This document shows positions 14,662-48,830 of a DNA stretch of 64,000 nucleotides, one piece after another; position 1 is the stretch's first letter; the number at the start of each line of letters is the position of its first letter. The notes below the pieces were generated by a model. It did no database searches and had not been told where the DNA came from. It saw only the letters and a program-made list of their open reading frames with translations. The stretch spans positions 55,000 to 118,999 of the forward strand of contig NCGF01000007.1 of NCBI GenBank assembly GCA_002281485.1, read 5' to 3'. This DNA comes from Sphingomonas sp. 28-66-16. Its GTDB lineage: Bacteria > Pseudomonadota > Alphaproteobacteria > Sphingomonadales > Sphingomonadaceae. A program made the translations under genes and the position numbers.

Positions 14662-14673
14662 TTGTCCGGACAT
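14662..14673. promoter_or_regulatory. Candidate GntR operator A (TTGTCCGGACAT)
   Basis: TTGTCCGGACAT matches the 12-bp palindrome TTGTCCGGACAA in 11 of 12 positions. It lies ten bases after the ilvD stop and 81 bases before the DUF1838 gene, the first gene of the island. Four other copies precede island genes (19171, 35791, 36560, 48813). The likely binder is the GntR/HutC protein at 30188-30937 (inference). Confidence 0.6.
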
Positions 14674-14754
14674 ATTTGCATTTGCGCGACGATCGGTTAG
14701 GGTGGCGGCGTTCAGGATCGGGCACCAACGGCCCGATGCAAAGGGAGGCCTGCC

Positions 14755-15645
14755 TTGATCCGATCACTCCTCGCCGGAGCTGCGCTCGCGGTCGTTTGCT
14801 CAAGTCCGCTGGCGGCGCGCCAACTCGATCCCAATGTGCCCGCCGACGCGCTCGAGATCAGCAAGCGCACCCAGTGCGGCGCCAAGGACGGCGAGCCGGC
14901 GGTGTATCACTGGTCGGGCAAGGTCTATTCGCGGATCGAGGGCGAGCCCGACAGATTGCTGTTCCTGGGCGAGGGCATGAACATCCGCCAATGCGTCTCG
15001 GTCGACGATCCGAAGCGCGGCAAGGGCTATCGACAGGTCAGTCGCGAGGTGATGCTGTTCCTCGATCCCAAGACCGGCGAGATCGCGCGCAACTGGGCCA
15101 ATCCCTGGACCGGCGAGACGGTGCCCGTCGGCCATATCGCCAATGATCCGGTCAATGGCCGTCCCAGCTTTCCGATCGGTGCCGATGGCAAGCCCTATAC
15201 GATCAGCCTGAACCGGATGGGCCAATGGGCGCAGATGCCGGTCGAAGTGCCGCTCTTCTATGAAAATCCGCTCGGCGGCGATTATCAGGATTATGTCGGC
15301 AACAAATATCACGCGATGGAGATTTTTGATTTCGCGGCGCGCGCCGATGAATTGCTCGATACCAAATACCCGACCGCCTATCCCTCGGTCTCCTGGGTCC
15401 GGATCTCCGACTGGATGCCGTGGATGAAAATGCGCGGCCGCCACGGCAATATCGTTTTCAATGCGATGGGCACGAAGCTCAAGAGCTTCGACGAGCTGCC
15501 CAAGCTGCTCAAGGACGAGATCGCCCGTGCCTATCCCGCCTGGACGTCGCCGCCGCCGGCCGACGATGCCCGGCCCAACGAGACGACCTGGACGGTGTTC
15601 CGCAAACAGATCGACGCTGCGCGCAAGGCGGCGGCGCCGAAATAG
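14755..15645 (+). CDS. DUF1838 family exported protein
   Basis: 296 residues from TTG 14755, preceded by AAGGGAGG six bases upstream. A signal peptide (LLAGAALAVVCSSPLAARQ) sends it to the periplasm. The remainder matches DUF1838: VSREVMLFLDPKTGEI, NPWTGETVPVGHIANDPVN and the C-terminal DWMPWMKMRGRHG region. The function of the family is unknown. It follows operator A and is thus a probable member of the GntR regulon. It converges on the next gene with a three-base gap. Confidence 0.8.
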   Translation: MIRSLLAGAALAVVCSSPLAARQLDPNVPADALEISKRTQCGAKDGEPAVYHWSGKVYSRIEGEPDRLLFLGEGMNIRQCVSVDDPKRGKGYRQVSREVMLFLDPKTGEIARNWANPWTGETVPVGHIANDPVNGRPSFPIGADGKPYTISLNRMGQWAQMPVEVPLFYENPLGGDYQDYVGNKYHAMEIFDFAARADELLDTKYPTAYPSVSWVRISDWMPWMKMRGRHGNIVFNAMGTKLKSFDELPKLLKDEIARAYPAWTSPPPADDARPNETTWTVFRKQIDAARKAAAPK

Positions 15646-15648
15646 CGG

Positions 15649-16401
15649 TCATTTCGGCGGGGTGAACAGCGCATCGTCGATCGGTGCGTCGACCCTGGTG
15701 TCGGTCCAGAACACCTCGTTGGCTTTCACCCCGTTATAGTAGAGCGTCACGTGCCGCGCCTGAAGCCAGCGCGGGTGGGTGAGGGTGACGAAATCGTCAT
15801 AGGTGCGCACGTGCCACCCTTTCGGCGTCGCGAAGCCCATCGTGCGGATCGCGTAGCTCGCCTTGTCGATGCCGAACAACGTGACGCCGCCGTCGGGGTC
15901 GGTGAGCCGCACCATGTAGAGCGGATGGCCGTCGATGCCGTCGTCGGGGACGCGATCGGCCGTGAAGCCGGGATCGGCGGCGTGGCGGATGATGCCGAAG
16001 CCGAAATTGGTCGCCCAGAAGGCGTCGGCTTCGGCCTTGGGGATGATGCCGCGCTCGTTCCACGTGGTTGCGCCGTCATAGCCGATCGTGAACATCGGCT
16101 TGCCCTGCGCATTGGCGACGATTCGGACCTTGCCCTCGGCAGTATGCGCGGCCTTGCGGTCGGGATTGAACACGCGCCACATGCGATAGTCATCCGCCTT
16201 CGCGCGCGGCGCCGCACCGCGTCGCCCGTAAAAGATCGCGTGGCCCCAAAGCGTCAGGGTCTTGGCGCGAGCCCAGGCGTCGCCGCCGGCCGCTTCGGTA
16301 GCGCGCGCGAGAATCGCGGCGCCATCGGGCGTTTCCTGGGCAGGCAGCGCGGTCGCAGCGACGAGGATCGCCAGCGGCACGGCCAGGTGGTGGGGCTTCA
16401 T
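15649..16401 (-). CDS. Exported protein of unknown function (LolA/outer-membrane-lipoprotein-sorting-like)
   Basis: 250 residues. I chose the ATG at 16401 since GGAG is six bases upstream; an ATG at 16407 would abut the ribosome site. It has a cleavable signal (LAVPLAILVAATALPAQ) followed by GAAILARATEAAGGDAWARAKTLTLWGHAIFYGR, a start common in periplasmic beta-rich proteins related to lipoprotein-sorting folds. Specific function is not recognisable. It lies behind the TonB receptor gene and is separated from it by a strong terminator. Confidence 0.65.
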   Translation of the reverse strand: MKPHHLAVPLAILVAATALPAQETPDGAAILARATEAAGGDAWARAKTLTLWGHAIFYGRRGAAPRAKADDYRMWRVFNPDRKAAHTAEGKVRIVANAQGKPMFTIGYDGATTWNERGIIPKAEADAFWATNFGFGIIRHAADPGFTADRVPDDGIDGHPLYMVRLTDPDGGVTLFGIDKASYAIRTMGFATPKGWHVRTYDDFVTLTHPRWLQARHVTLYYNGVKANEVFWTDTRVDAPIDDALFTPPK

Positions 16402-16475: not shown

Positions 16476-19115
16476 TCAGAAGTTGAACGTCCCTTCGATA
16501 CCGAAGGTGCGGCCCTTGCGAAGCGCCGTGAAGAAGGCGCGCGGGGCGCCCGTCTCGATCTGCGCGGGGCGCCCGTCAAAGGTCACCGTTGCGGCCGCCG
16601 GCAGCCCGGTCGTGCCCGCCCCGTAGCGATAGTCGAACCAGCGCGTCGCGAGCGGTGCCGAATCCTCGTCGGTCAGATTGCGGACAAAGGCAGCAAGACT
16701 GAACTGTCCCGATCGAACGCCGATGCGACCGTTGAGGAGGAAGGCGTCGCCGACCTGGGCAAGATTGTCGACCTGCACATATTTGCTCGATTCATAGCTG
16801 AAGTTCAGGTTGCTCCACAGCGACAGATTGCCGTGCAACGGCACCGTGTAGGTCGCGTTGCCGTTGAGCGTCACCGGCGATCCGAGCGGCAGCCGCTTGC
16901 CCGTGATGTCGCACAGCGGCAGGCCGGCAGCGGTCGGATTGCGATTGTCGAAGTTCGGTCGGATGCCACCCGAATTGAGGATGAACTGATCGGCATCGCA
17001 CCCCGAGGTGAACCGCGCGTCGACATACGACACCCCAAAGCCGAGATTGAGCCGGTCGGTCGGCGCTGCTTGCACTTCGAGTTCGAATCCCGTGGTGCGT
17101 GCATTGCCCTGGTTGGTGACGATCGAGGTGATCGCGCCGGTGCCGTTCGGATTGGGAATCGCGGTGGTCAGCTGCACATCGGTGAGCTTGGTGGTGTATA
17201 CCGAAGCCGAAACCCGGACGCGATTGTTGAGCAGCCCGAATTTGGTGCCGAGCTCGAACCCTTCCGATTTCTCGGCGAGATAGTTGACGAAATTCTGGCC
17301 GGTCTGCGTGGTCGCCGTGACGCCGGCGGTGCCGTTGAACCCGCTCGGTTTGCGGCCCTGTGCATAGATGCCGTAAAAGAGCAGCCCGCCGGGCGTCGAA
17401 TAGTTGATCGTCACGCGCGGCGTTGTGCCGGTATCCTTGTTCTCGGGCCGGCAATTGGCGGCGGTGAAAGTCCCGAACACGTTGGTCTGGCCTGCATAGC
17501 CCGCGCAGAAGATCGGCGCCGAGGAGAAATCGAGCGATTTCCTCGTCTCCTCGGCATAGCGGACTTCGCCGGTGATCGACAGCCGCTTGGTAATGTCGAC
17601 CGTCAGCAGACCGAACACCGCCATGTTTTCAAGCTCGTTTCGGCTCGAACCCGGTCCGCCGAGCGGATCGCCGACGATGGGATTGGCGAAGCTCAGATCC
17701 TTGCCATCGGTTTTCTGCTTGAAATAATAGCCGCCGATCAGGCCGCGCACCGGCCAGCGCTGCGGCGAGGCGATGCGGACTTCCTGGCTGAAATCATAGC
17801 CGTCGTTGCGCGTGGTATTGGCAAAGGCGGCTTCGGTGACGAGCGGGTTGGGCGCCGATCCGCCGATCGCCGGATTGGTGTTGAAGAAAAAGAACGAGTC
17901 GCTGTGATCGGAATCGGTGCCGAACAGATTGTTGTTCGCCCGGTAGCCCGACAGGCTGGAAAAGACGAAGCCCGATCCGGCAATGTCCCAGTCGATGATC
18001 GCGGTGCCGTAATATTGATCGTTCTGGATACCGTCGAACGCCGTCCCATCGAACACGCCGGTGATCGGCGCGGTGCGGAACGAGGGTGGCTGGCCGGTAT
18101 ATCCCGGGATGGTGATCGCGATTGGATCGGTATTCAGCCGCACGCCGTTGGGCTGGGGCTGGATCGTCCCGCAGAAATACTGGTTGTTGTTGGTCGATGG
18201 GCCAAGCAGGTTGGGGATATAGGGCAATGCGCTCGATACGGTGCGATACTGCGCCGAGCGGAAGCCCGGCTGGCAGTTGTTGGCGGCCGCTCCCTGGAGG
18301 AACAGCGCCAGCGGTCCATCGCGATTGTGCTGATACTGCCCGCGCAGCCGGATCTTGAGATCGTCGCTCGGGGTGAAATTGAGCAGCGCATAGATCGACT
18401 CGGTGCGCTCGCTGCCGACTTTGCGGCCGGTGAGCTGATTGATGTATTGGCCGCCATATTCATAATGGCGGCCGCCGATGCGAAAGCCAAGCAGGCCGGG
18501 AATGATCTGGCCCGAAACCGAGGCCGAAATCGTGTATTCGTTATATTGCGCGACCGAAGACCTGCCCGACACCGTCAGCTTCTCGGTCGGGTCCTTGGTG
18601 ATGAAGTTGATCGCACCGGCATAGGTGTTGCGGCCGTAGAGCGCCGATTGCGGGCCCTTGATCACCTCGACGCGCTGGAGCGATTCGGGATCGAAGCCCT
18701 GGATGTCGCCCTGATAGTAAATGCCGTCGACGAAATAGGCGGCGCCCGATTCGACGCCGAACTGGACGTTGGCGAGCACGTTCGAAGCGCCGCGCACCAC
18801 GGGCCGATCGGATGACCGTCCGAACGCCTGACTGAAGCTGATGCCGGTCGCCTGCTTGGCGAAATCATCGATGCTGTTGAGGCCGAGCGTCCGGATCTTG
18901 GCTTCGGACAGTACCGAAACCGACACCGGCGCTGTCTGCAGCGATTCCTCGACCTTGCGGGCGGTCACGACGATTTCTTCGAGACCGGTCTGTCCGGCAG
19001 GCGCCTCGGCGGCCGTCGTCGGTGGGGTCTGCTCAGCGGGCCTGTTCTGCGCCACCGCCGTTCCGGAACTCATCACCGTTGCTGCCAGCAAGGCAGCCCG
19101 CGTCACCATCCGCAT
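16476..19115 (-). CDS. TonB-dependent outer-membrane receptor (first)
   Basis: 879 residues from ATG 19115, which has GGGGGAGAG upstream and is followed by a signal peptide (RAALLAATVMSSGTAVAQ). A TonB box-like LEEIVVTARK precedes the plug domain (VIKGPQSALYGRNTYAGAINFITKDP), then a long beta-barrel ending in the typical aromatic tail EGTFNF. Such receptors import scarce or bulky substrates across the outer membrane using TonB energy. No FecR/sigma partner is present. Operator B lies 56-75 bases upstream, so substrate-dependent control by GntR is likely. Confidence 0.93.
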   Translation of the reverse strand: MRMVTRAALLAATVMSSGTAVAQNRPAEQTPPTTAAEAPAGQTGLEEIVVTARKVEESLQTAPVSVSVLSEAKIRTLGLNSIDDFAKQATGISFSQAFGRSSDRPVVRGASNVLANVQFGVESGAAYFVDGIYYQGDIQGFDPESLQRVEVIKGPQSALYGRNTYAGAINFITKDPTEKLTVSGRSSVAQYNEYTISASVSGQIIPGLLGFRIGGRHYEYGGQYINQLTGRKVGSERTESIYALLNFTPSDDLKIRLRGQYQHNRDGPLALFLQGAAANNCQPGFRSAQYRTVSSALPYIPNLLGPSTNNNQYFCGTIQPQPNGVRLNTDPIAITIPGYTGQPPSFRTAPITGVFDGTAFDGIQNDQYYGTAIIDWDIAGSGFVFSSLSGYRANNNLFGTDSDHSDSFFFFNTNPAIGGSAPNPLVTEAAFANTTRNDGYDFSQEVRIASPQRWPVRGLIGGYYFKQKTDGKDLSFANPIVGDPLGGPGSSRNELENMAVFGLLTVDITKRLSITGEVRYAEETRKSLDFSSAPIFCAGYAGQTNVFGTFTAANCRPENKDTGTTPRVTINYSTPGGLLFYGIYAQGRKPSGFNGTAGVTATTQTGQNFVNYLAEKSEGFELGTKFGLLNNRVRVSASVYTTKLTDVQLTTAIPNPNGTGAITSIVTNQGNARTTGFELEVQAAPTDRLNLGFGVSYVDARFTSGCDADQFILNSGGIRPNFDNRNPTAAGLPLCDITGKRLPLGSPVTLNGNATYTVPLHGNLSLWSNLNFSYESSKYVQVDNLAQVGDAFLLNGRIGVRSGQFSLAAFVRNLTDEDSAPLATRWFDYRYGAGTTGLPAAATVTFDGRPAQIETGAPRAFFTALRKGRTFGIEGTFNF

Positions 19116-19170: not shown

Positions 19171-19190
19171 AAATTTGTCCAGACAAATTT
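19171..19190. promoter_or_regulatory. Candidate GntR operator B (20-bp inverted repeat)
   Basis: AAATTTGTCCAGACAAATTT is an inverted repeat with nine paired bases on each side of a central CA. It is the longest arm pairing among the five island sites. It sits between the divergent TonB receptor (start 19115, minus) and the DUF1330 gene (start 19316, plus), so it could control both. Confidence 0.75.
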
Positions 19191-19315
19191 TGATTGAGAA
19201 GAGCTGACGACCGTGCAACTGTTGCAGTCGTGTAACACTCATCGGACCGATATTGCCCGGCGACGATCGCGCCGGCGCTAAGGTCCGAGCTACGACCGAA
19301 CGCGAAAGGAACGTC

Positions 19316-19621
19316 ATGGCCGCCTATATGATCGTCACCGCCAGAATTGAGGATCGCGACCGGTTCATCAGCGGCTATGGCCAGGCCGCTGCGGCGCTGG
19401 TGGCGCAATTCGGGGGCAAATACGTGCTGCGCGGCCCCGGCGTCGAGCTGCTTGAGGGCAGCTTTGGCGACGGCGCTTCGATGGTGATCTCCGAATGGCC
19501 CGATCGCGCGGCTGCGCGGGCATTCTGGACCTCGCCCGACTATGCCGAGGTGAAAAAGCTGCGCGCGGGAATCGCCGATTGCCAGGTGTTGCTGATCGAG
19601 GCACCTAGGATCAACGGCTGA
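19316..19621 (+). CDS. DUF1330 family small protein
   Basis: 101 residues from ATG 19316 with AAAGGA upstream. The sequence MIVTARIEDRDRFISGYGQAAAALVAQFGGKYVLRG and ISEWPDRAAARAFWTSPDYAEVKKLR is the DUF1330 ferredoxin-like (dimeric alpha/beta barrel) pattern. Members are found with catabolic enzymes but have no settled activity. First of three genes reading right (with quinone oxidoreductase and DUF421), probably driven from the operator B region. Confidence 0.85.
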   Translation: MAAYMIVTARIEDRDRFISGYGQAAAALVAQFGGKYVLRGPGVELLEGSFGDGASMVISEWPDRAAARAFWTSPDYAEVKKLRAGIADCQVLLIEAPRING

Positions 19622-19652
19622 TCCGAAAAGCGATCGTCGACGGGAGCTTGGC

Positions 19653-20627
19653 ATGGCACGCAGCGCGATTTTCCGGGAGTTTGGCGGACCCGAGGTCATC
19701 GAATGGATCGACGTTGATCTGCCGCCGCCGGGGCCGGGCGAGGTGCGCTTCGTCACGCGCGCGGCGGGGCTGAACTTCATCGATACCTATCATCGCCGCG
19801 GCATCTATCCCGGCGCGCTGCCGAGTCCGTTGGGGATGGAAGGTGCCGGCGTCGTCGCGGCGCTGGGCGAGGGGGTTTCGGGATTTGCCGTCGGCGACCG
19901 GGTGGCGACCTTCGGACCGCTTCGCGGCGCCTATGCGACCGAGCGCAACCTGCCGGCCAGCGCGCTGTTCAAGCTGCCCGAGGCGATTTCCGACGAGATC
20001 GCCGCCGCGTCGCTGCTCAAGGGCTGTACCGCGGAATTCCTGGCCGAGCGCGCCGCAGCAGTGAAGGCGGGCGATTGGGTCCTGGTCCATGCAGCTGCGG
20101 GCGGGGTGGGGCTGATCCTCGTCCAGTGGCTGAACGCGATCGGCGCGCGGGTGATCGGCACCGTCGGCACAGCGGACAAGGCCGTTCTCGCCCGACAGGC
20201 AGGCGCCGAGGCGGTAATCCTCTACCGCGACGAGGAGATCGCCCCCAGGGTGCGCGCGATCACCGGTGGCGCAGGGGTGCGCGTCAGCTACGACGGCATC
20301 GGCCAGGCGACATGGAATGCCTCGCTCGATTCGACCGGGCGGCGCGGGATGATCGTCAGCTATGGCAATGCCGATGCGCCGGTGACGGGCGTCGCACTGG
20401 GCATTCTCGCGACCAAGGGCTCGTTGTATAACACTCGGCCGACGCTGTTCGATTACTATACCACGCCTGACGAACGCGCGGCTGGGGCGGGTCGGCTGTG
20501 GGACATGATCACGAGCGGCAAGGTGACGATTACGATCGGCCAGCGCTTTCGCCTCGAAGACGCGGCGCAGGCACAGCGCGACCTCGAAAGTCGCGCCACT
20601 CACGGATCGACGCTGCTCATTCCTTAG
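19653..20627 (+). CDS. Zinc-independent quinone oxidoreductase-like NADPH dehydrogenase
   Basis: 324 residues, MDR superfamily. The N-terminal half has AGLNFIDTYHRRGIYP and LGMEGAGVV; the Rossmann part has VLVHAAAGGVGLILVQWL, the quinone oxidoreductase signature. Structural zinc cysteines are absent, as in QorA. It reduces quinones or enones with NADPH. Follows the DUF1330 gene by 31 bases. The specific substrate in this island is unknown. Confidence 0.88.
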   Translation: MARSAIFREFGGPEVIEWIDVDLPPPGPGEVRFVTRAAGLNFIDTYHRRGIYPGALPSPLGMEGAGVVAALGEGVSGFAVGDRVATFGPLRGAYATERNLPASALFKLPEAISDEIAAASLLKGCTAEFLAERAAAVKAGDWVLVHAAAGGVGLILVQWLNAIGARVIGTVGTADKAVLARQAGAEAVILYRDEEIAPRVRAITGGAGVRVSYDGIGQATWNASLDSTGRRGMIVSYGNADAPVTGVALGILATKGSLYNTRPTLFDYYTTPDERAAGAGRLWDMITSGKVTITIGQRFRLEDAAQAQRDLESRATHGSTLLIP

Positions 20628-20753
20628 CCGGTGCCGGCAGCGTCACCAACGCATTGAACCATGTTCCACCCCACCCGTTGTCGACATAGATTCACCGCGC
20701 CGGCCACGGCGATTAGGCCGGCAACCCTTGATGCGCGGACACCGGAGATTTCG

Positions 20754-21272
20754 ATGCTGCCTGATACTGTCCTTCGCGGCATCGTGCAGGCCAGCCTGGC
20801 ACTGGTTTGGGTCATTCTGCTCGTCCGGATGATCGGCGCGCGGACGCTTTCAAAAATGACGGCATTTGATTTTGTGGTGACGCTGGCAACGGGCTCGCTG
20901 CTGGCTGCTGCAGGCTCATCGAAGGACGATGATGCCTTTGCCCAGGCGATTGCGGCGATGACGACCCTGCTGCTGGTGCAGTTGGCACTGGCATGGGCCC
21001 GCCGGCGCTTCGACTGGTTCCGACAAGGTATCGAGAACCAACCGCTGGTGTTGATGCGCAACGGGGATTTCATCGATTCCGCGCTGAGGCAGAGCCGGGT
21101 CGCGCGCAGCGACATCTACGTCAAGATTCGCCAGGCCGATGTGGCGATCGATCGGGTCTCGGCGATCATTCTGGAGACGACCGGCGACATTTCGGTCTTG
21201 ACCAACACCATTCTCGAAGAGCCGCTGTCGGCGGGCATCAGAGGCGCCGATGCCGGCGGCCGGGCCGCCTGA
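20754..21272 (+). CDS. DUF421 (YetF/YcaP-type) membrane protein
   Basis: 172 residues from ATG 20754 (GGAG six bases upstream). Three N-terminal hydrophobic helices (LVWVILLVRMIGARTLSKMTAFDFVVTLATGSLLA, then AMTTLLLVQLALAWA) are followed by the cytoplasmic domain with QPLVLMRNGDFIDSALRQSRVARSDI, typical of DUF421. Function is not established. It ends 12 bases from the stop of the convergent VOC gene. It may be unrelated to the island's chemistry. Confidence 0.82.
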   Translation: MLPDTVLRGIVQASLALVWVILLVRMIGARTLSKMTAFDFVVTLATGSLLAAAGSSKDDDAFAQAIAAMTTLLLVQLALAWARRRFDWFRQGIENQPLVLMRNGDFIDSALRQSRVARSDIYVKIRQADVAIDRVSAIILETTGDISVLTNTILEEPLSAGIRGADAGGRAA

Positions 21273-21284: not shown

Positions 21285-22193
21285 TCAGCGGCTGTCGATC
21301 TCGACCAGCTCCAGGAGTTCGCCGGCTGGGCCGATCGTCGTCGATGCCCGGCGACCAGCGTAAAACGGTCCCACGCGCGGCGCCGGCGGCGCAATCAGGG
21401 CAAGGTCCGGGCGATCGAGCGAGTCCACCGCCAGCGTCACCATGGCATTGCCCGGCGGCAGCATGCCCGCCGAGCGCGCCCGCACGGTCGCGACATCCGG
21501 ATAGTCGTCGATCTCGACGATCGGCATTCGCCCCTTTTGGGCCATGCTCAGCGAAGTCATGTGCGGGTCGGGCAGGCCGAACGCCTTGTTGATCATCGTG
21601 TAGGGGATTGTGTACGCCCCGCCTTCATCAAGCCCGAGCCGCTGGGAATACCAGGCCATCGTTGCGGCGCGATCAGGGCTGGCGAGGATGACGATGAACA
21701 GGTGATCGACCGGCGACTGCGCGGGCGGGAGGTCGGACGTCGGCGTGTTCTCGCGCACTTCGTTGAGATAGATCATTTCGCGGCCCCGCCCGAGCATCTG
21801 CATCGCGACGAAATAGGGGAGGCCGGGGATTTCCTTTGGCGGGCCGATGATGTCGAAGCCGCTGCCGGCGAGCTTGTCGGGCCAGGCGAACACATCCTGC
21901 ACGGTGATCTCGAACGCCGCCCAGCCATAAGTACGGGTCGGCACGAAACCGGGGTCGAGCGGTTGCTGCACCAGCCGGAGATAACAGGGCGCGCCGCTGG
22001 TTGGGGCGAGCGTGGCGAAGGGGGCGCCGGCATTGGCAGGGCACCCCCAGCTAGCGGCGAGATCGGCAGGAAGCGCGCCCTGCTCGACGACCGAGAGCCC
22101 GAGCCGGTCGCGGTAGTCGCCGAGACTCGCCTCGACATCGGGCACCGTCGCGAGACCGCCGATGATGCGGCCATGGGTGAGGAAATCGCTCAT
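21285..22193 (-). CDS. VOC (glyoxalase/extradiol dioxygenase fold) family protein
   Basis: 302 residues with two glyoxalase-like modules: residues about 5-140 (GRIIGGLATVPDVEASLGDYRDRLGLSVVEQ) and about 145-300 (PVDHLFIVILASPDRAATMAWYSQRLGLDEG). The fold binds a metal in paired modules. Substrate unknown. Last gene of the minus-strand run starting upstream; its ATG overlaps the stop of the enoyl-CoA hydratase gene by four bases. Confidence 0.82.
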   Translation of the reverse strand: MSDFLTHGRIIGGLATVPDVEASLGDYRDRLGLSVVEQGALPADLAASWGCPANAGAPFATLAPTSGAPCYLRLVQQPLDPGFVPTRTYGWAAFEITVQDVFAWPDKLAGSGFDIIGPPKEIPGLPYFVAMQMLGRGREMIYLNEVRENTPTSDLPPAQSPVDHLFIVILASPDRAATMAWYSQRLGLDEGGAYTIPYTMINKAFGLPDPHMTSLSMAQKGRMPIVEIDDYPDVATVRARSAGMLPPGNAMVTLAVDSLDRPDLALIAPPAPRVGPFYAGRRASTTIGPAGELLELVEIDSR

Positions 22194-22939
22194 CGGAAGA
22201 CCGGCTTTCGCTTGGCAAGAAAGGCGCCGACGCCCTCCTGAAAATCGGGCTGGGTAAAGGCGTCGGCGAACAGCGCGCTCGTCGTCGCATCGTCATGCGC
22301 CTGGCCGTTGAGGATGCGGCGGACCATCGCCTTGGCCTCGCGCGCGGTGTGCGGCGAATTGGCGGCGATCGTTTCCGCAAGCGCGAATGGATCATCGCCG
22401 AGCAAGTCGATCAGCCCGATCCGGAGTGCCTCGGTCGCGTCGACCAAGCCAGCAGTGAACAGGATACGCTTGGCCTGCGAGGCGCCGACCGCATCGACCA
22501 GCAGCTTGGTATCATGAAGCGAATAGACCAGCCCGAGCTTGGCCGGGGTGATCCCGAGGCGGGCGTTCGCCGTTGCGACGCGCAGGTCGCAGGCGAGCGC
22601 CAGCCCGCAGCCGCCGCCGACGCAATCGCCCTCGATAAAGGCGATGACGGGCTTGGGCGCGAGGGTGAGATCGATCTGCGCGCGGGCGATGGCGGCCTGA
22701 TTGGCGGCGCGCCAGGCAGGATCGGTCGCGCCGGCGCCGAATTCGGCGATGTCTGCCCCGGCGGAAAAGGCGCCGGGTTCGGCCGCGCGCAGGATCAGCA
22801 CGCGGACGGCGTCATCGGCCATGGCTTCGGCAATCAGGGCCGGGAATTGCTCCCACATCGCCTGGGTGATCGCGTTTCGTTTGGCAGCGCGATCGATGAT
22901 GAGATGGGCGACGGCACCGTTCGTTCCGAGGCGCAGCAT
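22190..22939 (-). CDS. Enoyl-CoA hydratase/isomerase family protein
   Basis: 249 residues, crotonase fold. Oxyanion-hole segments are visible: FSAGADIAEFG near residue 60 and EGDCVGGGCGLALACDLRVA near residue 105, followed by PAKLGLVY. It hydrates or isomerises an enoyl-CoA. Start ATG 22939 has a GGAGGA site, but this site is the 3' arm of a perfect hairpin (see 22944-22970). Confidence 0.9.
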   Translation of the reverse strand: MLRLGTNGAVAHLIIDRAAKRNAITQAMWEQFPALIAEAMADDAVRVLILRAAEPGAFSAGADIAEFGAGATDPAWRAANQAAIARAQIDLTLAPKPVIAFIEGDCVGGGCGLALACDLRVATANARLGITPAKLGLVYSLHDTKLLVDAVGASQAKRILFTAGLVDATEALRIGLIDLLGDDPFALAETIAANSPHTAREAKAMVRRILNGQAHDDATTSALFADAFTQPDFQEGVGAFLAKRKPVFR

Positions 22940-22943
22940 CAAT

Positions 22944-22970
22944 TCCTCCCCGAGCTTGTCTCGGGGAGGA
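22944..22970 (-). repeat. REP-like hairpin that contains the ribosome site of the enoyl-CoA hydratase gene
   Basis: TCCTCCCCGAG (22944-22954) and CTCGGGGAGGA (22960-22970) form a perfect 11-bp stem with a five-base loop. I recall such elements being common in sphingomonad genomes. In the mRNA (minus strand) the GGAGGA ribosome site lies in the stem, four bases before the ATG at 22939, so initiation may be dampened unless the hairpin is opened. Confidence 0.7.
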
Positions 22971-22985
22971 CTTTGCCGATGATCC

Positions 22986-23852: not shown

Positions 23853-23931
23853 AAGTCCCTCCTTTTTCCTCGTCCATGCTCGCAGGGAAGAGGGAATCCT
23901 TGCATTGCGGGCGGCCAAACCGACCCACTTT

Positions 23932-23964
23932 CCCGTCACCCCGGATCAAGTCCGGAGTGACGGG
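23932..23964. repeat. REP-like imperfect palindrome
   Basis: CCCGTCACCCCGGA and TCCGGAGTGACGGG pair in 13 of 14 positions around TCAAG. This is the GTCACCCCGGA...TCCGG type of repeat recalled from sphingomonad intergenic regions. It sits between the SDR gene stop (23985) and the deacetylase start (23852) and could end or attenuate the upstream minus-strand transcript. Confidence 0.65.
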
Positions 23965-23984
23965 TTGGCTTGGCGACACATCAC

Positions 23985-25084: not shown

Positions 25085-25097
25085 CGCGGGGTCTCCT

Positions 25098-35802: not shown

Positions 35803-35832
35803 CTTGTGCAGGTCAAGCCCGAATCGCGCCCG

Positions 35833-36599: not shown

Positions 36600-36639
36600 T
36601 CCATGCCGGCGCGCGGCGCGGGCTAAAGGGAGACGTTTG

Positions 36640-39138: not shown

Positions 39139-39151
39139 GGTGGCAACGGGC

Positions 39152-40420: not shown

Positions 40421-41954
40421 GCACGATCGCCTCGAGGCGATCATCGACGCCGTCGGCAGCGCGGCGATCGTCAGCGATCCCGCTGCGCTCGCGCTTTACG
40501 GCCAGGACGTCTTCTCGCTTGGCGTAACGCCGCTCGCGCTGTTCCGACCGACCAGCGTCGCGGATCTCGCCGCCGGCGTGGCGGCTGCGACCGCCCAGGG
40601 GATCGCGGTGGTGCCGCGCGGCGGCGGGATGAGCTATACCTCGGGTTATCTCGCCGATACGCCGGCGCTGCTGGTCGATCTCGCCGGTCTCGACCGGATC
40701 CTCGAAATCGATCCGGTCGACATGCGCGTGACGGTCGAGGCCGGGTGCAGTTGGGCGGCGCTCTACGAGGCGCTTCACCCGCGCGGGCTGCGCACGCCCT
40801 TATGGGGCACGCTCTCGGGGATCAAGGCGAGCATCGGCGGCGGGATGAGCCAGAACGGGCTGTTCTGGGGCGGGCGCGACGGAACGATCGCCGGCAGCGC
40901 CTTGTCGTTCGACGTCGTGCTCGCCGACGGCACGATTCTGAGCACGGGCAGCGCCACCCTGCGTCCGTTCGGGCCTGACCTGACCGGACTGTTCGCCGCC
41001 GATTGCGGGGCGTTGGGCATCAAGGCGCGGGTGACGCTGCCGCTGGTGCGCGAGGCAGCGGCATTGGCCTATGGCAGCTTCGCCTTCGCCGCCCCCGATC
41101 GCTTCGTCGCTGCGACCAGCGAGATTGCCCGTGCCGGCCTCGCCAGCGAAAGCTTCGGGTTCGATCCCTTCCTCCAGGCGCAACGGATGAAGCGCGACAG
41201 TCTGTCGAGCGATGCCAGGGCGCTGGTCGGCATGATGAAGGCACAGGGCGGTTTCTGGAAGGGACTGAGGGAAGGGGCCCGGGTGGTCGCTGCCGGGCGC
41301 AGTTTTCTCGACGAGGCGCGCTTTTCGATTCATACCATCGCCGAGGGGCGAACCCAGGCGGCCGCCGATGCCGATATGGCCGCGATTCGCGCGATCGTGG
41401 CGGCACAAGGGGGAACCGAGGTCGAAAATACGATCCCCAAGGTTCTGCGCGCCAATCCGTTCCCGCCGGTCAATTCGATGCTCGGTCCCTCGGGCGAGCG
41501 CTGGGTGCCGGTTCACGGCGTCGTCCGGCACAGCCGCGCGCTCGCGACGATCGAGTCGATCATCGATTTGTTCGAGGCGCACCGCGCCGAAATGGAAGCG
41601 CTCGATGTCGGTGCGGGCTATATGTTCCTGCCCGTCGCCGCGACGGGGTTTCTGATCGAGCCGGTGTTTTACTGGCCGGATGCCCAGGCCGCGCTGCATA
41701 GACACGCGGTCGAGCCGGCACATCTCGCCCGGCTCACCGAGTACCGCAGCAACCCGCCGGCACGCGCGCTCGTCGAGAAGCTGCGCGCGGCCATCATCGC
41801 GATCTTCGGACGGATGGAGGCGGTGCATTTCCAGCTCGGCCGCGCCTATCCGCTCGCCGAGCGAATCGACCCGGCAGGCTGGCGGCTGCTACAATCGGTC
41901 AAGGCGGCGGTCGATCCGCGCGGGCTGATGAACCCGGGGGTGCTGGGGCTGTGA
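40404..41954 (+). CDS. FAD-binding (PCMH/VAO-type) oxidoreductase
   Basis: 516 residues. FAD-binding PCMH domain near residues 40-220 (RPTSVADLAAGVAAATAQGIAVVPRGGGMSYTSGY, GTLSGIKASIGGGMSQN), and a vanillyl-alcohol-oxidase-like C-terminal domain. The usual flavin-linking His in the PRGGG region is not seen, so FAD is probably non-covalent. It oxidises an alcohol, amine or hydroxyacid; the electron acceptor is unknown. Overlaps MFS and nitrilase-like genes. Confidence 0.85.
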   Translation: MATIARHDRLEAIIDAVGSAAIVSDPAALALYGQDVFSLGVTPLALFRPTSVADLAAGVAAATAQGIAVVPRGGGMSYTSGYLADTPALLVDLAGLDRILEIDPVDMRVTVEAGCSWAALYEALHPRGLRTPLWGTLSGIKASIGGGMSQNGLFWGGRDGTIAGSALSFDVVLADGTILSTGSATLRPFGPDLTGLFAADCGALGIKARVTLPLVREAAALAYGSFAFAAPDRFVAATSEIARAGLASESFGFDPFLQAQRMKRDSLSSDARALVGMMKAQGGFWKGLREGARVVAAGRSFLDEARFSIHTIAEGRTQAAADADMAAIRAIVAAQGGTEVENTIPKVLRANPFPPVNSMLGPSGERWVPVHGVVRHSRALATIESIIDLFEAHRAEMEALDVGAGYMFLPVAATGFLIEPVFYWPDAQAALHRHAVEPAHLARLTEYRSNPPARALVEKLRAAIIAIFGRMEAVHFQLGRAYPLAERIDPAGWRLLQSVKAAVDPRGLMNPGVLGL

Positions 41955-43003
41955 CGACAGCGTTCGCCGCGGTCGCGATGCAACTCACGGCACGGTCGGT
42001 CGAGGCGTGCGCCGATCGTGCCGCCGCGAGCGCGCAGATGACGGCGATGATCGCCGAGGTGGGTGTCAGGCTTCGCGGCGCTGCGATCTTCATCGAGCAA
42101 TATGGCGGCACGCCGGTCCGGCTCGCGGTGCTGCCCGAATATCTGCTGACGAGCTATCCCGGGCGCATCTCCATTCCCGATTTCGCCGCCAAGGCCGCGA
42201 TCGATGTCGACGGGCCCGAATATGAGGCATTCGGAAAGCTGGCGCAGGGACAGGGACTCTTCATCGCCGGCAACGCCTATGAACGCGACAGGCATTTTCC
42301 GGGGCTCTATTTCCAGACGAGTTTTGTCGTTGCCCCCTCGGGTGACGTCGTGTTGCGCTATCGCCGGTTGAACTCGATGTTCGCGCCGACCCCGCACGAT
42401 GTCTGGTCGAACTATCTCGACATTTACGGGCTCGATGGCGTGTTCCCGGTGGCGAAGACGGAGATCGGCAACCTTGCGGCGATCGCGTCGGAGGAAATCC
42501 TCTATCCCGAAATCGCGCGCGCCCATGCCTTACGCGGTGCCGAAATCTTCGTGCACAGCTCGTCCGAGATCGGGTCGCCCAACCCGACCCCCAAGGCGAT
42601 CGCCCGCCGCGCGCGCGCCTTCGAAAACATGGCCTATATCGTCTCGGCCAACACCGCCGGCATCAGCGGGACGATCATGCCGCTCGCCTCCGCCGACGGC
42701 AATTCGGTGGTGGTCGACTACAAGGGCCAGATCCTCGCCGAAGCCAATCCGGGCGAGACCTTCACTGCCTTTGCCGATCTCGATCTGGGCGCGCTGCGGG
42801 CGCAGCGCCGCAAGCCCGGCATGACCAACCAGCTTGCGCGGCAGCGGCTCGAACTGTTCGCCGACAGCTATACCGGCCGATCGGTCCAGCCCGCCAACAG
42901 CCTTGCCGATGCCGATGGCGGCTTCCAGATACCCGATCGGGATCATTTTCTGCGCGTCCACGAAAGCGTGATCGCGCGGCTCGCCAAGGATGGGCTGATA
43001 TGA
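41951..43003 (+). CDS. Nitrilase-fold protein lacking the catalytic cysteine
   Basis: 350 residues, carbon-nitrogen hydrolase fold. Glu63 (VLPEYL) is in place, but the catalytic Lys segment reads RYRRLN (Arg139) and the Cys segment reads AIASEEILYPE, where Ser180 stands where Cys is expected. The protein's only cysteine is Cys20, outside the active site. Glu is kept and the other two replaced by conservative changes, so it may have altered or no hydrolase activity. It overlaps both neighbours, indicating tight coupling with the flavoenzyme and the methyltransferase. Confidence 0.8.
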   Translation: MTTAFAAVAMQLTARSVEACADRAAASAQMTAMIAEVGVRLRGAAIFIEQYGGTPVRLAVLPEYLLTSYPGRISIPDFAAKAAIDVDGPEYEAFGKLAQGQGLFIAGNAYERDRHFPGLYFQTSFVVAPSGDVVLRYRRLNSMFAPTPHDVWSNYLDIYGLDGVFPVAKTEIGNLAAIASEEILYPEIARAHALRGAEIFVHSSSEIGSPNPTPKAIARRARAFENMAYIVSANTAGISGTIMPLASADGNSVVVDYKGQILAEANPGETFTAFADLDLGALRAQRRKPGMTNQLARQRLELFADSYTGRSVQPANSLADADGGFQIPDRDHFLRVHESVIARLAKDGLI

Positions 43004-44196
43004 AGCACGACGTCGCACCCCCCTATACCGCCGTTGCGCGCCATGCGGTGTTCCCCGAGCCTAGCCATGACGAGGCGGCGCGCTTCGATTTTCTGGCGAA
43101 TTTCAACAAATACATGTCGGGCACGCTCGGGCCCGGGAACAAGCGCGCCTATGAAACGCGCGTTCTGCCCGCCTTCATCAAGGAGCATGGGCGCCCGCCC
43201 GGGGACCGCTTCGAGATCAGGCGGGCGATGAACAAGGACCCGTGGCACCGCTTCTGGTCGGCGCTCAAGCGCAACTCGATGGAGATGCGCCAGCAGAACG
43301 GCCGCCAGATGGTGCTCCGCCAACTCGACGAGCTCGACGCGAGGGTGCGTCAATTCAATGAGGGTCGCGAGACGCTTCGGCTCGATGCGAGGGTGGCGGT
43401 GCCACGCTATCAGCAGGCAGTCGATATCCACTGCATGCCCGGCAGCTATCACGGCGAAGAACGACCCGGGGACGTCTCGGCGGGGGCCAATTATGATTGC
43501 GGGATTTTCGCGACGACGGCGGGCGGCCTTGGCGCGCTGAGCGATGGCGGCGGTATGGCGCTGGTCGAATGGGCCCGGCGCGAACGGCCCGGCTGGGCGC
43601 CGAAGCGGATCCTCGATCTGGGTTGTACGATCGGCCACAATATCGTCCCGCTCGCCCTCGCTTTCCCCGATGCCGAGGTCGTCGCGATCGACACCGCTGC
43701 GCCCAGCCTGCGTTACGGCCACGCGCGCGCGCAGGCGCTCGGCGCCCGCAACCTCAGCTTCGTGCAGATGAACGCCGAGGACATGAGCGCCTTTCCCGAT
43801 GGCCATTTCGATTGGGTGCAGACGACGATGTACCTCCACGAACTGTCGGGCACCGCCTTGCCGCGGATCATCGAGGAGGGATTCCGCGTGCTCGCGCCCG
43901 GCGGGCTGATGTTTCATCTCGAACAGCCGCAATATTCCGACGAGATGCCACTGTTCGAACAGTTCCTCCGCGATTGGGATGCCTTCAACAACAACGAGCC
44001 GTTTTGGTCGGCGATGCACGCGCTCGACCTGAAACAGATCATGATCGATGCCGGCTTCCCCGCGGACCGCCTGTTCACGACCGGGGTGCGCGCGGTCGTC
44101 GACACGGCGATCTTCCCCCGACAGGCGGCGGACGAGAAGGAAGACTTCGGCCGCGCGGCCTATTGGAACGCTTATGGCGCGTGGAAGCCGGAATGA
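43000..44196 (+). CDS. Class I SAM-dependent methyltransferase
   Basis: 398 residues. The Rossmann motif I is DLGCTIGHNIVPLALAFPDAEVVAID (about residues 205-230), with motif II-like FDWVQTTMYLHELSG following. The first 190 residues are a non-catalytic extension (KYMSGTLGPGNKRAYETRVLPAFIKEHGR and a long helical part). Motif I has T in place of the second Gly of the usual GxGxG. Methyl acceptor unknown. Overlaps the nitrilase-like gene and the next small gene. Confidence 0.82.
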   Translation: MKHDVAPPYTAVARHAVFPEPSHDEAARFDFLANFNKYMSGTLGPGNKRAYETRVLPAFIKEHGRPPGDRFEIRRAMNKDPWHRFWSALKRNSMEMRQQNGRQMVLRQLDELDARVRQFNEGRETLRLDARVAVPRYQQAVDIHCMPGSYHGEERPGDVSAGANYDCGIFATTAGGLGALSDGGGMALVEWARRERPGWAPKRILDLGCTIGHNIVPLALAFPDAEVVAIDTAAPSLRYGHARAQALGARNLSFVQMNAEDMSAFPDGHFDWVQTTMYLHELSGTALPRIIEEGFRVLAPGGLMFHLEQPQYSDEMPLFEQFLRDWDAFNNNEPFWSAMHALDLKQIMIDAGFPADRLFTTGVRAVVDTAIFPRQAADEKEDFGRAAYWNAYGAWKPE

Positions 44197-45795: not shown

Positions 45796-46266
45796 TCAGG
45801 GGTCGACCTGATCGATCCCGGCGGCGCTGAAGGTCGCCCGATATTCGGCATCGCCGACCTTGCCGACCATGTCGCTGCGCAGTGGCGCCTCGGGATAGAC
45901 GGCGACGACATAATCGCCCGCCGAGGGGTTCAGCCGCAACGGCTTGATCGTTTCCTGATAGGTCTTTGAATGCCAGAAGGCCCGGGCATTGGCGAGGCAC
46001 GGGAAACGCACGATCAGGTTGGTATAGCCCTTGGGGGGGGCGCCCTCGAAGGTATCGAGCGCCGCCGGCGCATTGAGATAATAGCCGCCGAGGCGCTGAT
46101 ACAGGCCGCTATCGGCGATTGCCTTGGCATAGGCGATCATCCGCGCGCGATCGATCGTCGGCCCCGAAACGACCATCAGCACCGGCTTGTTGTCGCAGCC
46201 AGCCGGTTGGGGAAGCGGGGCGGGCGTCGGACCGGCTACGGCCAGCAGCGCAAGCATCAGAATCAT
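45796..46266 (-). CDS. Exported DUF1330-like protein
   Basis: 156 residues from ATG 46266 with a GGAGG site upstream that straddles the VOC stop codon. An N-terminal signal-like segment (ILMLALLAVAGPTPAPL) precedes a DUF1330-type domain (YAKAIADSGLYQRLGGYYLN, FPCLANARAFWHSKTYQETIKPLR). Last gene of the aldehyde dehydrogenase operon. A cytoplasmic DUF1330 protein also exists at 19316-19621. Confidence 0.65.
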   Translation of the reverse strand: MILMLALLAVAGPTPAPLPQPAGCDNKPVLMVVSGPTIDRARMIAYAKAIADSGLYQRLGGYYLNAPAALDTFEGAPPKGYTNLIVRFPCLANARAFWHSKTYQETIKPLRLNPSAGDYVVAVYPEAPLRSDMVGKVGDAEYRATFSAAGIDQVDP

Positions 46267-46267
46267 C

Positions 46268-46846
46268 CTATCCTCCCAGCAACTGGTTCATTTCGATCAG
46301 GATCCCGTCGGGATCGAAGAAATTGCATCCCTTCACCCGGATGTCAGGGCCGCCGCCCCGTCCCGGATAGGTCTGCAGCCGCGGCGGCGAGGTCATCGTG
46401 ACCCCGGGCACTTTGGCCGCCGCGGCGCAGCGGCCCTCGACATCGTCGGTATTCATCACGATCACCACGCCGCCATAGCTCATCCGTTTCGGGTAGGGTT
46501 TCGCCTTCCCGAGCGTGGGGCTCGTCCATTGCATCAGCCCGATCCACCCTACCCAGGGATCATTGCCGTTGAGCAGCACGAGCCGCGCGGTCGCACCCGG
46601 CGCCCCGGCGGGCAGCGCCACCCCCGACGTCGTGACACCGGTATCGTAATTGACCTTGAGACCGATGACGTCGCGATAGAGCTTGAGCGAGGCATCGATG
46701 TCGCGGACGATCAGGGTCGTGCGGCGCACGTCGGTGGGTACTTTTTCGACAGGCGCTGCCACGCCCGGCGAACTGCGTGGCGGCGGCGCGGTCTGGGCCC
46801 AACCGGGGGCTGCGATGGCGAGCAGCGCGAGCGCCGGGATTTTCAT
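46268..46846 (-). CDS. Exported VOC (glyoxalase-fold) protein
   Basis: 192 residues. ATG 46846 is confirmed by the GGAG site six bases upstream and an ATGA overlap with the gene above. A signal peptide (KIPALALLAIAAPGWAQ) is followed by VRRTTLIVRDIDASLKLYRDVIGLKVNYDTG and a C-terminal FFDPDGILIEMNQLLG, typical of VOC proteins. Export is unusual for this fold. The role is unknown. Confidence 0.8.
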   Translation of the reverse strand: MKIPALALLAIAAPGWAQTAPPPRSSPGVAAPVEKVPTDVRRTTLIVRDIDASLKLYRDVIGLKVNYDTGVTTSGVALPAGAPGATARLVLLNGNDPWVGWIGLMQWTSPTLGKAKPYPKRMSYGGVVIVMNTDDVEGRCAAAAKVPGVTMTSPPRLQTYPGRGGGPDIRVKGCNFFDPDGILIEMNQLLGG

Positions 46847-47286
46847 GCTGTTCTCCATTCGTCACAAAGCGTGCGGCGGATCGGCACGCCCTTTTCGAAC
46901 CACTGCCAGGTCCTGGCCCGGGTGTTGCCGTCGTCGGCGAGCAGGATCGTCTCGATGAAATGCACGCCGGGTTCGTCGCGGCGATCGAGCCGGAGCATTA
47001 CCGCACCCTCGCGGGTTTCCCAGCCGGTACCGACGAACCGGTCGGTGTCCCAGTGCAGCAGCCCGTCGCGATAGGCACCCGCGAAGCGTCGCTCGACGAC
47101 GCGACCGTCCTCCCAGGTCAGCCGGTTGGTCTGGACATAGGCCTCGTCGTCGCGTCCCGGAAAGGCGCAGCGCGTCCAGGTGCGATGCTGGTCGATCAGC
47201 ACGAAGTCGCGGCTGACATGGCGGTAGATGCCCTCCCATTCGCCCGCGTGGCGCAGCATGGTCGGCATGGTTCGGGCAAGGCTCAT
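46843..47286 (-). CDS. DUF3598-like lipocalin-type protein (copy 1)
   Basis: 147 residues. LRHAGEWEGIYRHVSRDFVLIDQHRTWTRCAFP and YVQTNRLTWEDGRVVERRFAGAYRDGLLHWDTDRFVGTGWE resemble the DUF3598/lipocalin-like pattern (family name from memory). Its paralogue, at 50208-50711, shares the HxGxWxGxY start and the YHQTNxYxWxDGR... region. The two paralogues flank the divergent promoter with operator E. Four-base overlaps with both neighbours. Confidence 0.7.
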   Translation of the reverse strand: MSLARTMPTMLRHAGEWEGIYRHVSRDFVLIDQHRTWTRCAFPGRDDEAYVQTNRLTWEDGRVVERRFAGAYRDGLLHWDTDRFVGTGWETREGAVMLRLDRRDEPGVHFIETILLADDGNTRARTWQWFEKGVPIRRTLCDEWRTA

Positions 47287-48698
47287 CGGGCATCCTCGGC
47301 ATAAGCGGCAAGCGGCAGGGCGACGCCGGTCTGCCGGATCAGCGCCTGTTTGCGGAAGAAGCGCAGCAGCCCGCTGTCGCCCATCCGCGAGGGACCCAGT
47401 CCGCTCGACCCGAAACTCGATTTCTCGGCGTCGGCGACCATCGAGGTGAGCGCGCCGTCGTTGATCGAGATTGCCCCCGCCTCGAGCCGGACGGCGACGG
47501 CTTCGGCCTCGGCCGCCGTGCCCGCGAGCACCGCCGCCGACAGCCCGAAGGCGCCTTGATTGGCGAGGCCCACTGCCTCGTCGATCGTGGCAAACGGGGT
47601 CACCGGCAGCACCGGGCCAAAAGTCTCCTCGCGCATGATCGCCATCTCGGGCGTGACCTCGGTGAGCACCGTCGGTCGCAGATAGAGCCCGCCGCGTTGC
47701 TCGACCGTGCCGCCGCAGTGGACCACGGCACCGCGCGCGACCGCGTCGTCGATCTGTGCCTGAACGATTGCCGCCTGCTTCGCAAAGATGAACGGACCGA
47801 TGTCGCCGGCGCCGATATCCGAATCGTTGAGCCGCACCTGTTCCGCGAGTTCGACCAGCGCTGCCAGAAACGGTTCGGCGATCTGCCGCGCGACATAGAG
47901 TCGCTCGATCGACTGGCAGGCCTGGCCCGTATTGACGACCGATGCCCGCAGCGCGATCCGCGCCGCCCAAGCCGGATCGGCGCTCGCAAGAATGATCATC
48001 GGATCCTTGCCGCCGAGCTCGAGACTCGCCGGGATGAAGGCGCTCGCGGCGGCAACGGCGACCTGGCGACCGGTCGTCACCGATCCGGTGAAGGCGACGA
48101 AATCGACCGCCGCAACCATTGCCGCGCCCGTGGTGCCGTCGCCTTCGATCACCGCGATCGGCAGTTCGGGTACTTCGGCGATTGCCTGCATCAGCGGACC
48201 GATGAAGCGCGGGGTGACTTCGGACGGCTTGACGATCACCGCGCAGCCCGCCGCGAGCGCCGGGATCGCATCGATCAGCGCCAGCGTGAGCGGAAAATTC
48301 CATGGGCTGATCACGCCGACCAGCGGATAGGGCACCAGCCGGGTCTCGAGCTCGATCCCCGGCACGGCGCTGCTTCTCGGATCGGGGCTGTGCGACGCGA
48401 TCAGCGCCGGCGCCCGCGCTGCCCAGCGGTCGATTGCCCGGATCGTGCCGTCGACCTCGATGATCGAAATCGCCCGCCGACCGGTGTCGATCGTCAGCGC
48501 CTCGGCCAGTGCCTCGCGGTGGCGATCGATCGCCTCCGCCAATCGCCGCAGGATGCCGGCCCGCGTCTCGGGGCTGCGCGCCGCCCAGTCGGGCTGGCGA
48601 TGCCGCAAGCTGGTCGCGAGATCGTCGATCGTGACGCTATCGAGCGGATCGATGCGATGATCGTCAAGACCGGTGCGCGGGTTCCGGATCGCGATCAA
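47283..48698 (-). CDS. Aldehyde dehydrogenase family protein
   Basis: 471 residues from TTG 48698. Catalytic residues: Glu in SLELGGKDPMIILAS and Cys in NTGQACQSIERLYV. It oxidises an aldehyde with NAD(P). The N-terminus starts LIAIRNPRTG. No ribosome site lies before the TTG; it overlaps (TTGA) the end of an 18-codon frame that has one (48695-48751). Either coupling or a small frameshift in the 5' end explains this. Operator E lies upstream. Confidence 0.9.
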   Translation of the reverse strand: MIAIRNPRTGLDDHRIDPLDSVTIDDLATSLRHRQPDWAARSPETRAGILRRLAEAIDRHREALAEALTIDTGRRAISIIEVDGTIRAIDRWAARAPALIASHSPDPRSSAVPGIELETRLVPYPLVGVISPWNFPLTLALIDAIPALAAGCAVIVKPSEVTPRFIGPLMQAIAEVPELPIAVIEGDGTTGAAMVAAVDFVAFTGSVTTGRQVAVAAASAFIPASLELGGKDPMIILASADPAWAARIALRASVVNTGQACQSIERLYVARQIAEPFLAALVELAEQVRLNDSDIGAGDIGPFIFAKQAAIVQAQIDDAVARGAVVHCGGTVEQRGGLYLRPTVLTEVTPEMAIMREETFGPVLPVTPFATIDEAVGLANQGAFGLSAAVLAGTAAEAEAVAVRLEAGAISINDGALTSMVADAEKSSFGSSGLGPSRMGDSGLLRFFRKQALIRQTGVALPLAAYAEDAR

Positions 48699-48751
48699 CG
48701 CAGCGCCGCTCGATCGCCGCCGATCATCCGCATGCCGGTCATTTCCGCCAC
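48695..48751 (-). CDS. 18-residue ORF overlapping the aldehyde dehydrogenase start
   Basis: GTG 48751 has GGGAG six bases upstream and opens a 18-codon frame (AEMTGMRMIGGDRAALR after the start). Its TGA overlaps the TTG of the dehydrogenase as TTGA. It may be a coupling leader or the true N-terminus after a -1 frameshift. The same layout occurs before leuB. Confidence 0.35.
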   Translation of the reverse strand: MAEMTGMRMIGGDRAALR

Positions 48752-48812
48752 GACTGTCTCCCTCTTTTCGTCCCGTCTGATAGTGCGGAGACGATTAGGG
48801 CTTGTCCAGCGC

Positions 48813-48830
48813 AATTTGTCCGGACAAATT
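48813..48830. promoter_or_regulatory. Candidate GntR operator E (18-bp perfect palindrome)
   Basis: AATTTGTCCGGACAAATT is a perfect 18-bp palindrome, the longest fully symmetric island site. It ends seven bases before the hydrolase ATG at 48838 and lies 62 bases before the 18-codon frame of the divergent dehydrogenase. On the plus strand TTGTCC (48802-48807) is followed 16 bases later by ACAAAT, the same geometry as at operator C. Confidence 0.82.

Follow-up and report, generated by a model that had tools for sequence, protein, structure and literature searches.

HutC-subfamily members of the GntR regulator family bind operators with the consensus NyGTMTAKACNy, GT and AC standing four nucleotides apart in most members, according to excerpts of PMC4494728. 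In histidine utilisation, a regulator of this type controls catabolic genes and a TonB-dependent transporter, the latter being described for Caulobacterales and Sphingomonadales (excerpted text of PMC5343134). Here, we analysed a 64,000-nucleotide stretch of Sphingomonas sp. 28-66-16 (the window; C38:55000-118999 of a 3,136,252-bp draft genome of 51 contigs, 86.4% complete), in which the 12-bp palindrome TTGTCCGGACAA recurs around the gene of a GntR-family regulator with a UTRA domain. It is highly likely that the five palindromes are operators of this HutC-subfamily protein, which would repress the adjoining genes until an effector binds.

The whole draft genome holds five copies of the 12-mer at one mismatch or fewer, all within 14662-48827 of the window, against three copies genome-wide for the reversed control pattern. 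Under random placement, such clustering has a probability of the order of 2e-7. Within the window, 59 rearranged control palindromes gave 0.15 matches on average and never more than 4, compared with the five of the 12-mer; at up to two mismatches, the 12-mer has six matches, compared with a mean of 1.51 and a largest count of 5 in 100 shuffles. A first-pass annotation made from the window alone had reported the five copies, all of which were found in place, and had proposed this genome search together with a clustering test; the scatter of equally good sites at unrelated promoters, which it had named as the outcome that would count against a regulon, was not seen. Its proposal of a five-site regulon is supported, with a span of 34 kb instead of about 40 kb. 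Besides the five sites (Table 1), a matrix scan of the window and the 20 kb before it returned nothing at 7.5 bits or above; the matrix has 28 columns and derives from 88 unique sites in other genomes. The symmetric consensus of the matrix sites is aaATTTGTCCGGACAAATtt.

Given the gene starts that we judged likely (TTG 14755 for the DUF1838 gene, ATG 19115 and ATG 36640 for TonB receptors 1 and 2, GTG 35759 or 35750 for HpcH, ATG 48838 for the hydrolase), all five sites are intergenic, as had been stated. Those at 19175, 36560, and 48816 lie between divergent genes, again in agreement with the earlier reading, and those at 14662 and 35791 have only a single downstream gene. No sigma-70-like promoter was recognised at sites 3 or 4 by a promoter scan of 35700-36700. 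A half-site, TTGTCC, was noted at 48802-48807, 17 bp from the centre of site 5; the published extra boxes stand 7-12 nt away (PMC4494728). The sixth copy in the window (CTGTCCGGACAG, 51096-51107, two mismatches), was rejected as a site for its position inside the LeuC-like coding region, its two mismatches, and its matrix score below 7.5 bits, and is probably due to chance.

The regulator has an N-terminal GntR winged-helix domain (PF00392, 1.6e-18) and a C-terminal UTRA domain (PF07702, 1.4e-20; both scored on the longer open reading frame (ORF) 30110-30937), the pair of domains by which the HutC subfamily is recognised. The nearest solved structures by sequence include YvoA (7.5e-18) and, lower, DasR (2.2e-11). 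No NCBIfam equivalog cut-off was reached by the protein, including that of HutC itself (TIGR02018, 97.5 bits versus 220). The claim that this is the only regulator in the region was borne out by Pfam, which detected no other regulator domain among the scanned ORFs of 14662-48830, overlapping shadow ORFs being left out.

The link between regulator and palindrome was examined in other bacteria. A regulator alignment scan of named genomes gave at least 582 confirmed relatives, of which the best 80 loci were kept; since these were chosen by protein and not by motif, the motif counts are independent of the selection. They contain 82 exact sites and 142 sites at one mismatch or fewer, while 59 control palindromes of the same letters averaged about 0.14 and about 3.1, respectively. 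At least one such site was present in 61/80 loci: 25/29 where the regulator is at least 60% identical, 15/17 at 50-59%, 9/12 at 40-49%, and 12/22 below 40% (exact sites: 45, 26, 1, and 10, respectively). In 17/80 loci, the 400 bp preceding the aligned start of the regulator contain a site. Because the same word adjoins relatives of the regulator in many other bacteria, it is very probably the target of this protein, a link already drawn by the first-pass annotation and strengthened by the palindrome-rich loci and by the genome comparison below.

Gene content is also kept in these 80 loci, with PrpD1 in 62, CoA (coenzyme A) transferase 1 in 59, the PaaK-like protein and the acyl-CoA dehydrogenase in 57, and the amidase in 55. 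Around the regulator, many Sphingomonadales and two Steroidobacter-type genomes share the gene order, which is kept more loosely elsewhere. Sites were found in loci of Sphingomonas, Sphingobium, Novosphingobium, Sphingorhabdus, Erythrobacter, Altererythrobacter, Sandarakinorhabdus, and others, as well as in Steroidobacter and Peristeroidobacter, and in a looser form in Flavimaricola, Vineibacter, a Hyphomonadaceae genome, and other bacteria. L117, a contig recorded as cyanobacterial (Phormidium willei), has a cluster layout like that of the Azospirillum loci and is probably a contaminant.

Some sites overlap sequence that was called as coding. In 79 loci (the siteless L060 was left out, being equal in length to G012:C186 and probably the same contig), 18 of the 142 sites fall inside homology-aligned stretches: 12 in HpcH or TonB receptor 1, 4 in PrpD2, and one each in the MFS transporter and a CoA transferase. 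The 12 overlaps arise because the query ORFs were over-extended at their start and took in the site. Of 206 sites in 101 loci, some of which overlap, 49 were placed inside ORFs by a rough ORF caller. Coding position was considered as an argument against operators and set aside for the sites as a whole, as this caller over-calls long ORFs in high-GC DNA and the query ORFs were over-extended.

The whole-genome comparisons gave a similar picture. Relatives of the regulator at 74, 60, and 53% identity occur in three genomes of the same genus. The single contig of one genome (G020, 3.68 Mb) holds nine matches at one mismatch or fewer, five of which, including all four exact copies, lie at 1647430-1667849 round the regulator gene (1665184), the exact ones within 19 kb; the other four are scattered single-mismatch copies. 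In G011, three of the four matches are within 12 kb beside the regulator. Among 61 genomes, an exact site was present in 10 of the 11 with a strong regulator match (best match of at least 112 bits, a threshold set after the hits were seen), the exception being G011, compared with 5 of the 50 others (Fisher p 3e-7). In G038, where the regulator is 39% identical, sites precede homologues of TonB receptors 1 and 2, LeuC, the HMG lyase/CoA transferase 3, and the window gene unk243, and one more site lies between PrpD1 and the regulator. This genome has six exact sites; its regulator homologue (L032:3261-4070) carries an in-frame TAG, which may be a sequencing error or mark a broken copy.

A stricter 14-mer, WTTGTCCRGACAAW, was present in all eight whole genomes behind named loci, in six of them with every copy on one contig, and its reversed control in none of the eight. 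The sole 14-mer of Peristeroidobacter (G063) is on a different contig from the regulator. That second contig (L166) has three exact 12-mers within 9.4 kb (2581, 9705, and 11947), adjoining homologues of unk243, TonB receptor 1, the carbon-nitrogen hydrolase, and the glyoxalase-like genes of the window. Treating it as an isolated exception was abandoned, since these neighbours speak for the regulon, which seems to be split over two places in this organism.

Several observations weigh against the palindromes being operators of this regulator, or against the completeness of the regulon drawn here. One single control palindrome reached 4 one-mismatch matches in the window. The conserved core of the matrix is partly a matter of construction, as its sites were collected at one mismatch or fewer to the 12-mer, and sites may have been missed because the genome is a 51-contig draft at 86% completeness. 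The matrix scan of the window detected no operator in the 44 bp that precede the regulator gene, nor upstream of the PrpD run (21285-30143), although some relatives have one in these places. Of the 80 loci, 19 lack a site. Their regulators are less than 40% identical in ten and 40-49% identical in three; the remaining six, at 50% or above (L060, L067, L069, L080, L081, and L082), all stop before the site-bearing HpcH gene. The exact site is remote from the regulator in 8 of the 10 positive genomes, several of which are fragmented drafts. The distance is about 31 kb in G045 and G051 and 183 kb in G039; in G012, G021, G038, G048, and G056, the site is on another contig. Sphingomonas cavernae (G062) likewise has one of its four 14-mer copies on another contig. 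Finally, the operator centre is CG in most sites here and TA in the published consensus (excerpt of PMC4494728); the symmetrised centre column is C 0.95 and T 0.05, and the TA centre is typical of the subfamily without strictly defining it.

The motif is short, which is the one feature that would allow the palindromes to be chance occurrences or a non-regulatory repeat; the counts against shuffles and control palindromes and the conserved placement at the same genes across genomes contradict this and make it a negligible prospect. It is also quite improbable that the palindrome is the target of a different transcription factor whose gene lies elsewhere in the genome, with the GntR gene as a mere neighbour. 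Binding of the regulator to the sites of the window is a prediction, three matches to the regulator protein in G000 indicate other GntR-type proteins there, and a LysR-family gene starts beside the exact site L166:11947 in Peristeroidobacter. Against this, the loci had been selected by the regulator and the motif persists in about half of them even below 40% identity, a site precedes the regulator gene itself in 17 of the 80, the island encodes no second regulator domain among its scanned ORFs, and the GT-N4-AC spacing of the operator, as well as its M/K positions, fits the HutC subfamily as excerpted from PMC4494728 (G 0.99 and T 1.00 in the 88 unique sites, which were collected at one mismatch or fewer).

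How the regulator would act on these sites is a separate matter. Site 5 ends 10 bp before a start codon, site 3 lies 30-40 bp before one, and sites 1, 2, and 4 lie about 60-80 bp upstream, so that position forces no single mode of regulation. Activation, or a dual role as reportedly played by the HutC-type NagR of Bacillus thuringiensis, is a minor possibility, as repression is the usual mode of UTRA regulators in catabolic operons and operators near start codons suit it. For the repressor that we favour, binding as a dimer and release by a small effector would follow the behaviour of the family. A dimer would occupy each palindrome and shut five promoter regions, which adjoin as many as eight transcription units: those of both TonB receptors, one with the transporter, and a number of catabolic ones. 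Substrate or a pathway intermediate would bind the UTRA domain and release the regulator, after which uptake and breakdown would start together.

Table 1. Predicted operator sites and genes of the window (operon extents judged from gene order and strand only).
Feature	Position	Strand	Description	Basis or matrix score
Operator site 1 (TTGTCCGGACAT)	14662-14673		1 mismatch; upstream of DUF1838 gene	33.5 bits
DUF1838 protein	14755-15645	+		Pfam
TonB-dependent receptor 1	16476-19115	-		Pfam
Operator site 2 (AAATTTGTCCAGACAAATTT)	19171-19190 (12-mer 19175-19186)		CCAG centre, 9-bp arms; between TonB receptor 1 (-) and DUF1330 (+)	37.9 bits
DUF1330, zinc alcohol dehydrogenase, YetF-like genes	19253-21272	+		Pfam
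Catabolic run	21285-30143	-	VOC/glyoxalase to MmgE/PrpD pair	Profile matches
GntR-family regulator with UTRA domain	30188-30937	+	Predicted binder of the five sites	Pfam, relatives, solved homologues
Catabolic run	30947-35759	-	Two class III CoA transferases, acyl-CoA dehydrogenase, RipB-like hydratase, RipC-like C-C lyase	
Operator site 3	35791-35802		Upstream of HpcH-MaoC-acyl-CoA dehydrogenase-CoA transferase run (-)	27.2 bits
Membrane-like protein	35833-36504	-	Between sites 3 and 4	No Pfam match
Operator site 4	36560-36571		Between membrane-like protein gene (-) and TonB receptor 2 (+)	39.0 bits
TonB-dependent receptor 2	36640-39138	+	Adjoins a site in relatives too	Pfam
MFS transporter, FAD-linked oxidase, carbon-nitrogen hydrolase, methyltransferase	38981-44196	+		
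DUF1330, glyoxalase-like, aldehyde dehydrogenase genes	45796-48698	-		
Operator site 5	48813-48830 (12-mer 48816-48827)		18-bp perfect palindrome; between aldehyde dehydrogenase (-) and alpha/beta hydrolase (+)	33.5 bits
Alpha/beta hydrolase, DUF3598-like calycin, LeuC-like, LeuD-like, HMG-CoA-lyase-like, class III CoA transferase	48838-54801	+		

The genes facing the sites are listed in Table 1. Site 4 faces the membrane-like protein on one side and, on the other, TonB receptor 2 followed by the MFS transporter, FAD-linked oxidase, carbon-nitrogen hydrolase, and methyltransferase; site 5 faces the aldehyde dehydrogenase and the run from the hydrolase through the DUF3598-like, LeuC-like, LeuD-like, and HMG-lyase-like proteins to the CoA transferase. 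The membrane-like protein has a homologue (72% identical) in the Peristeroidobacter locus L088; this homologue belongs to a 24-member family of site-adjacent genes of relatives. Divergent from the regulator gene, the run 21285-30143 is transcribed in the order PrpD, PrpD, PaaK, amidase, HapK, SDR, PuuE-like, enoyl-CoA hydratase, and VOC; the PaaK-like protein would be a ligase and the PuuE-like protein a cyclic amidohydrolase. The LeuC-like and LeuD-like proteins behind site 5 are of the isomerase/hydratase type. The window has two such pairs, one at 9609-12690 (-) with LeuB-like and IlvD-like neighbours and one at 50581-52718 (+), and the latter may be catabolic rather than leucine-making. 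The predicted model of the DUF1838 protein gave no fold match at E 0.001 or better.

Matches of the pathway enzymes in NCBIfam and the PDB, none of which reaches an equivalog cut-off, suggest that the CoA esters handled are those of a substituted dicarboxylate. The MaoC protein was closest to RipB (238.7 bits versus a cut-off of 340) and the HpcH protein to RipC (209.9 versus 375). The acyl-CoA dehydrogenase is nearest to the acryloyl-CoA reductase model, and the class III CoA transferases to the CoA:oxalate (30947-32026), succinate-glutarate and succinyl-CoA:mesaconate (32026-33294), and succinate-glutarate (53635-54801) models. The solved relatives of the FAD-linked oxidase gave no clear substrate, and none were found for the VOC protein. 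Nitrogen removal is suggested by the PuuE-like protein (249 bits with the allantoinase model, cut-off 424.6), the amidase, and the carbon-nitrogen hydrolase. Taken from these similarities, the gene set suggests breakdown of an imide- or amide-type compound, proceeding via CoA esters of an acid that resembles an alkyl-succinate. The probable route would open a cyclic imide or amide, remove its nitrogen, activate the acid with CoA, and cleave a CoA ester of the alkyl-succinyl/citramalyl type.

Relatives extend this gene set. In G020, G012, and Sphingomonas hylomeconis, there are two additional PuuE-like proteins as well as a gene of 230 residues that diverges from the operon behind site 5. The G020 copy of the latter is an isochorismatase-family hydrolase whose nearest solved relatives include N-carbamoylsarcosine amidohydrolase as well as 4l07 and 3uao, which we take to be maleamate amidases; together with the additional PuuE-like proteins, these relatives fit a cyclic imide or amide as substrate. 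Outside the sphingomonads, exact sites adjoin TRAP transporter genes (L116 and L168) or the gene of an ABC solute-binding protein (L132), and one-mismatch sites adjoin TctC-type (L133) and permease (L128) genes; L126 likewise has a one-mismatch site beside a transporter gene. Judging from these neighbours, the transport part seems to have been exchanged, with TRAP, ABC, or TctC-type systems in place of TonB receptors, and the type of regulator kept.

A link to bilin pigments is speculative, and we regard it as a long shot that the regulon encodes an undescribed bacterial pathway feeding on bilin-type tetrapyrroles or their maleimide fragments. The hints are a fold match, a HapK-type protein, and the isochorismatase-type hydrolases beside the operator in relatives, which are presumably maleamate-amidase-like. 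The model of the DUF3598-like protein (50169-50711, +) is closest to Ycf58 (3bdr, E 1.1e-5), presumably a CpcS-type phycobilin lyase, and then to other calycin-like folds; the protein is possibly a pigment or lipid binder, with the caution that calycins bind many ligands. HapK is named from a prodigiosin cluster. In such a pathway PuuE-like enzymes would open a substituted maleimide, the amidase or isochorismatase-type enzymes would strip the nitrogen, LeuCD-like enzymes would hydrate the alkyl-maleate, and CoA transferases with RipC-like or HMG-lyase-like enzymes would cleave the product to central metabolites. The TRAP and ABC transporter genes at sites of other bacteria mean that a small molecule such as a carboxylate suits better than a whole bilin. 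In the literature searched, no direct information on the substrate and no description of the motif or the gene set was found, which is not proof that there is none; the one paper that came up for the motif was unrelated.

Sequence alone was enough here to define one regulator, its probable operator, and a regulon of several operons that is found again in many genomes. With the operator as a simple handle, any gene that bears it can be placed in the pathway. Candidate inducers could be tried on a reporter driven by one of the site-bearing promoter regions, and the compound that induces would indicate the substrate.

The closest described systems each share part of this arrangement. As in the histidine-utilisation regulons excerpted in PMC5343134, a HutC-type regulator would govern catabolic genes and a TonB-dependent transporter, but no histidine-degradation (hut) gene was present among the scanned ORFs of the window. 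The amino-sugar regulators DasR and NagR differ in operator type, given as TGGTCTAGACCA in the first-pass annotation, and no amino-sugar gene was detected among the same ORFs; the targets seen are neither histidine nor amino-sugar genes. Itaconate degradation by RipABC (CoA transferase, RipB hydratase, and RipC lyase) is matched by the RipB-like and RipC-like proteins, whereas many extra enzymes are encoded here, including amide-hydrolase-like and imide-hydrolase-like ones. Set beside these systems, the locus is a genuine and conserved regulon whose regulator is of a common type.

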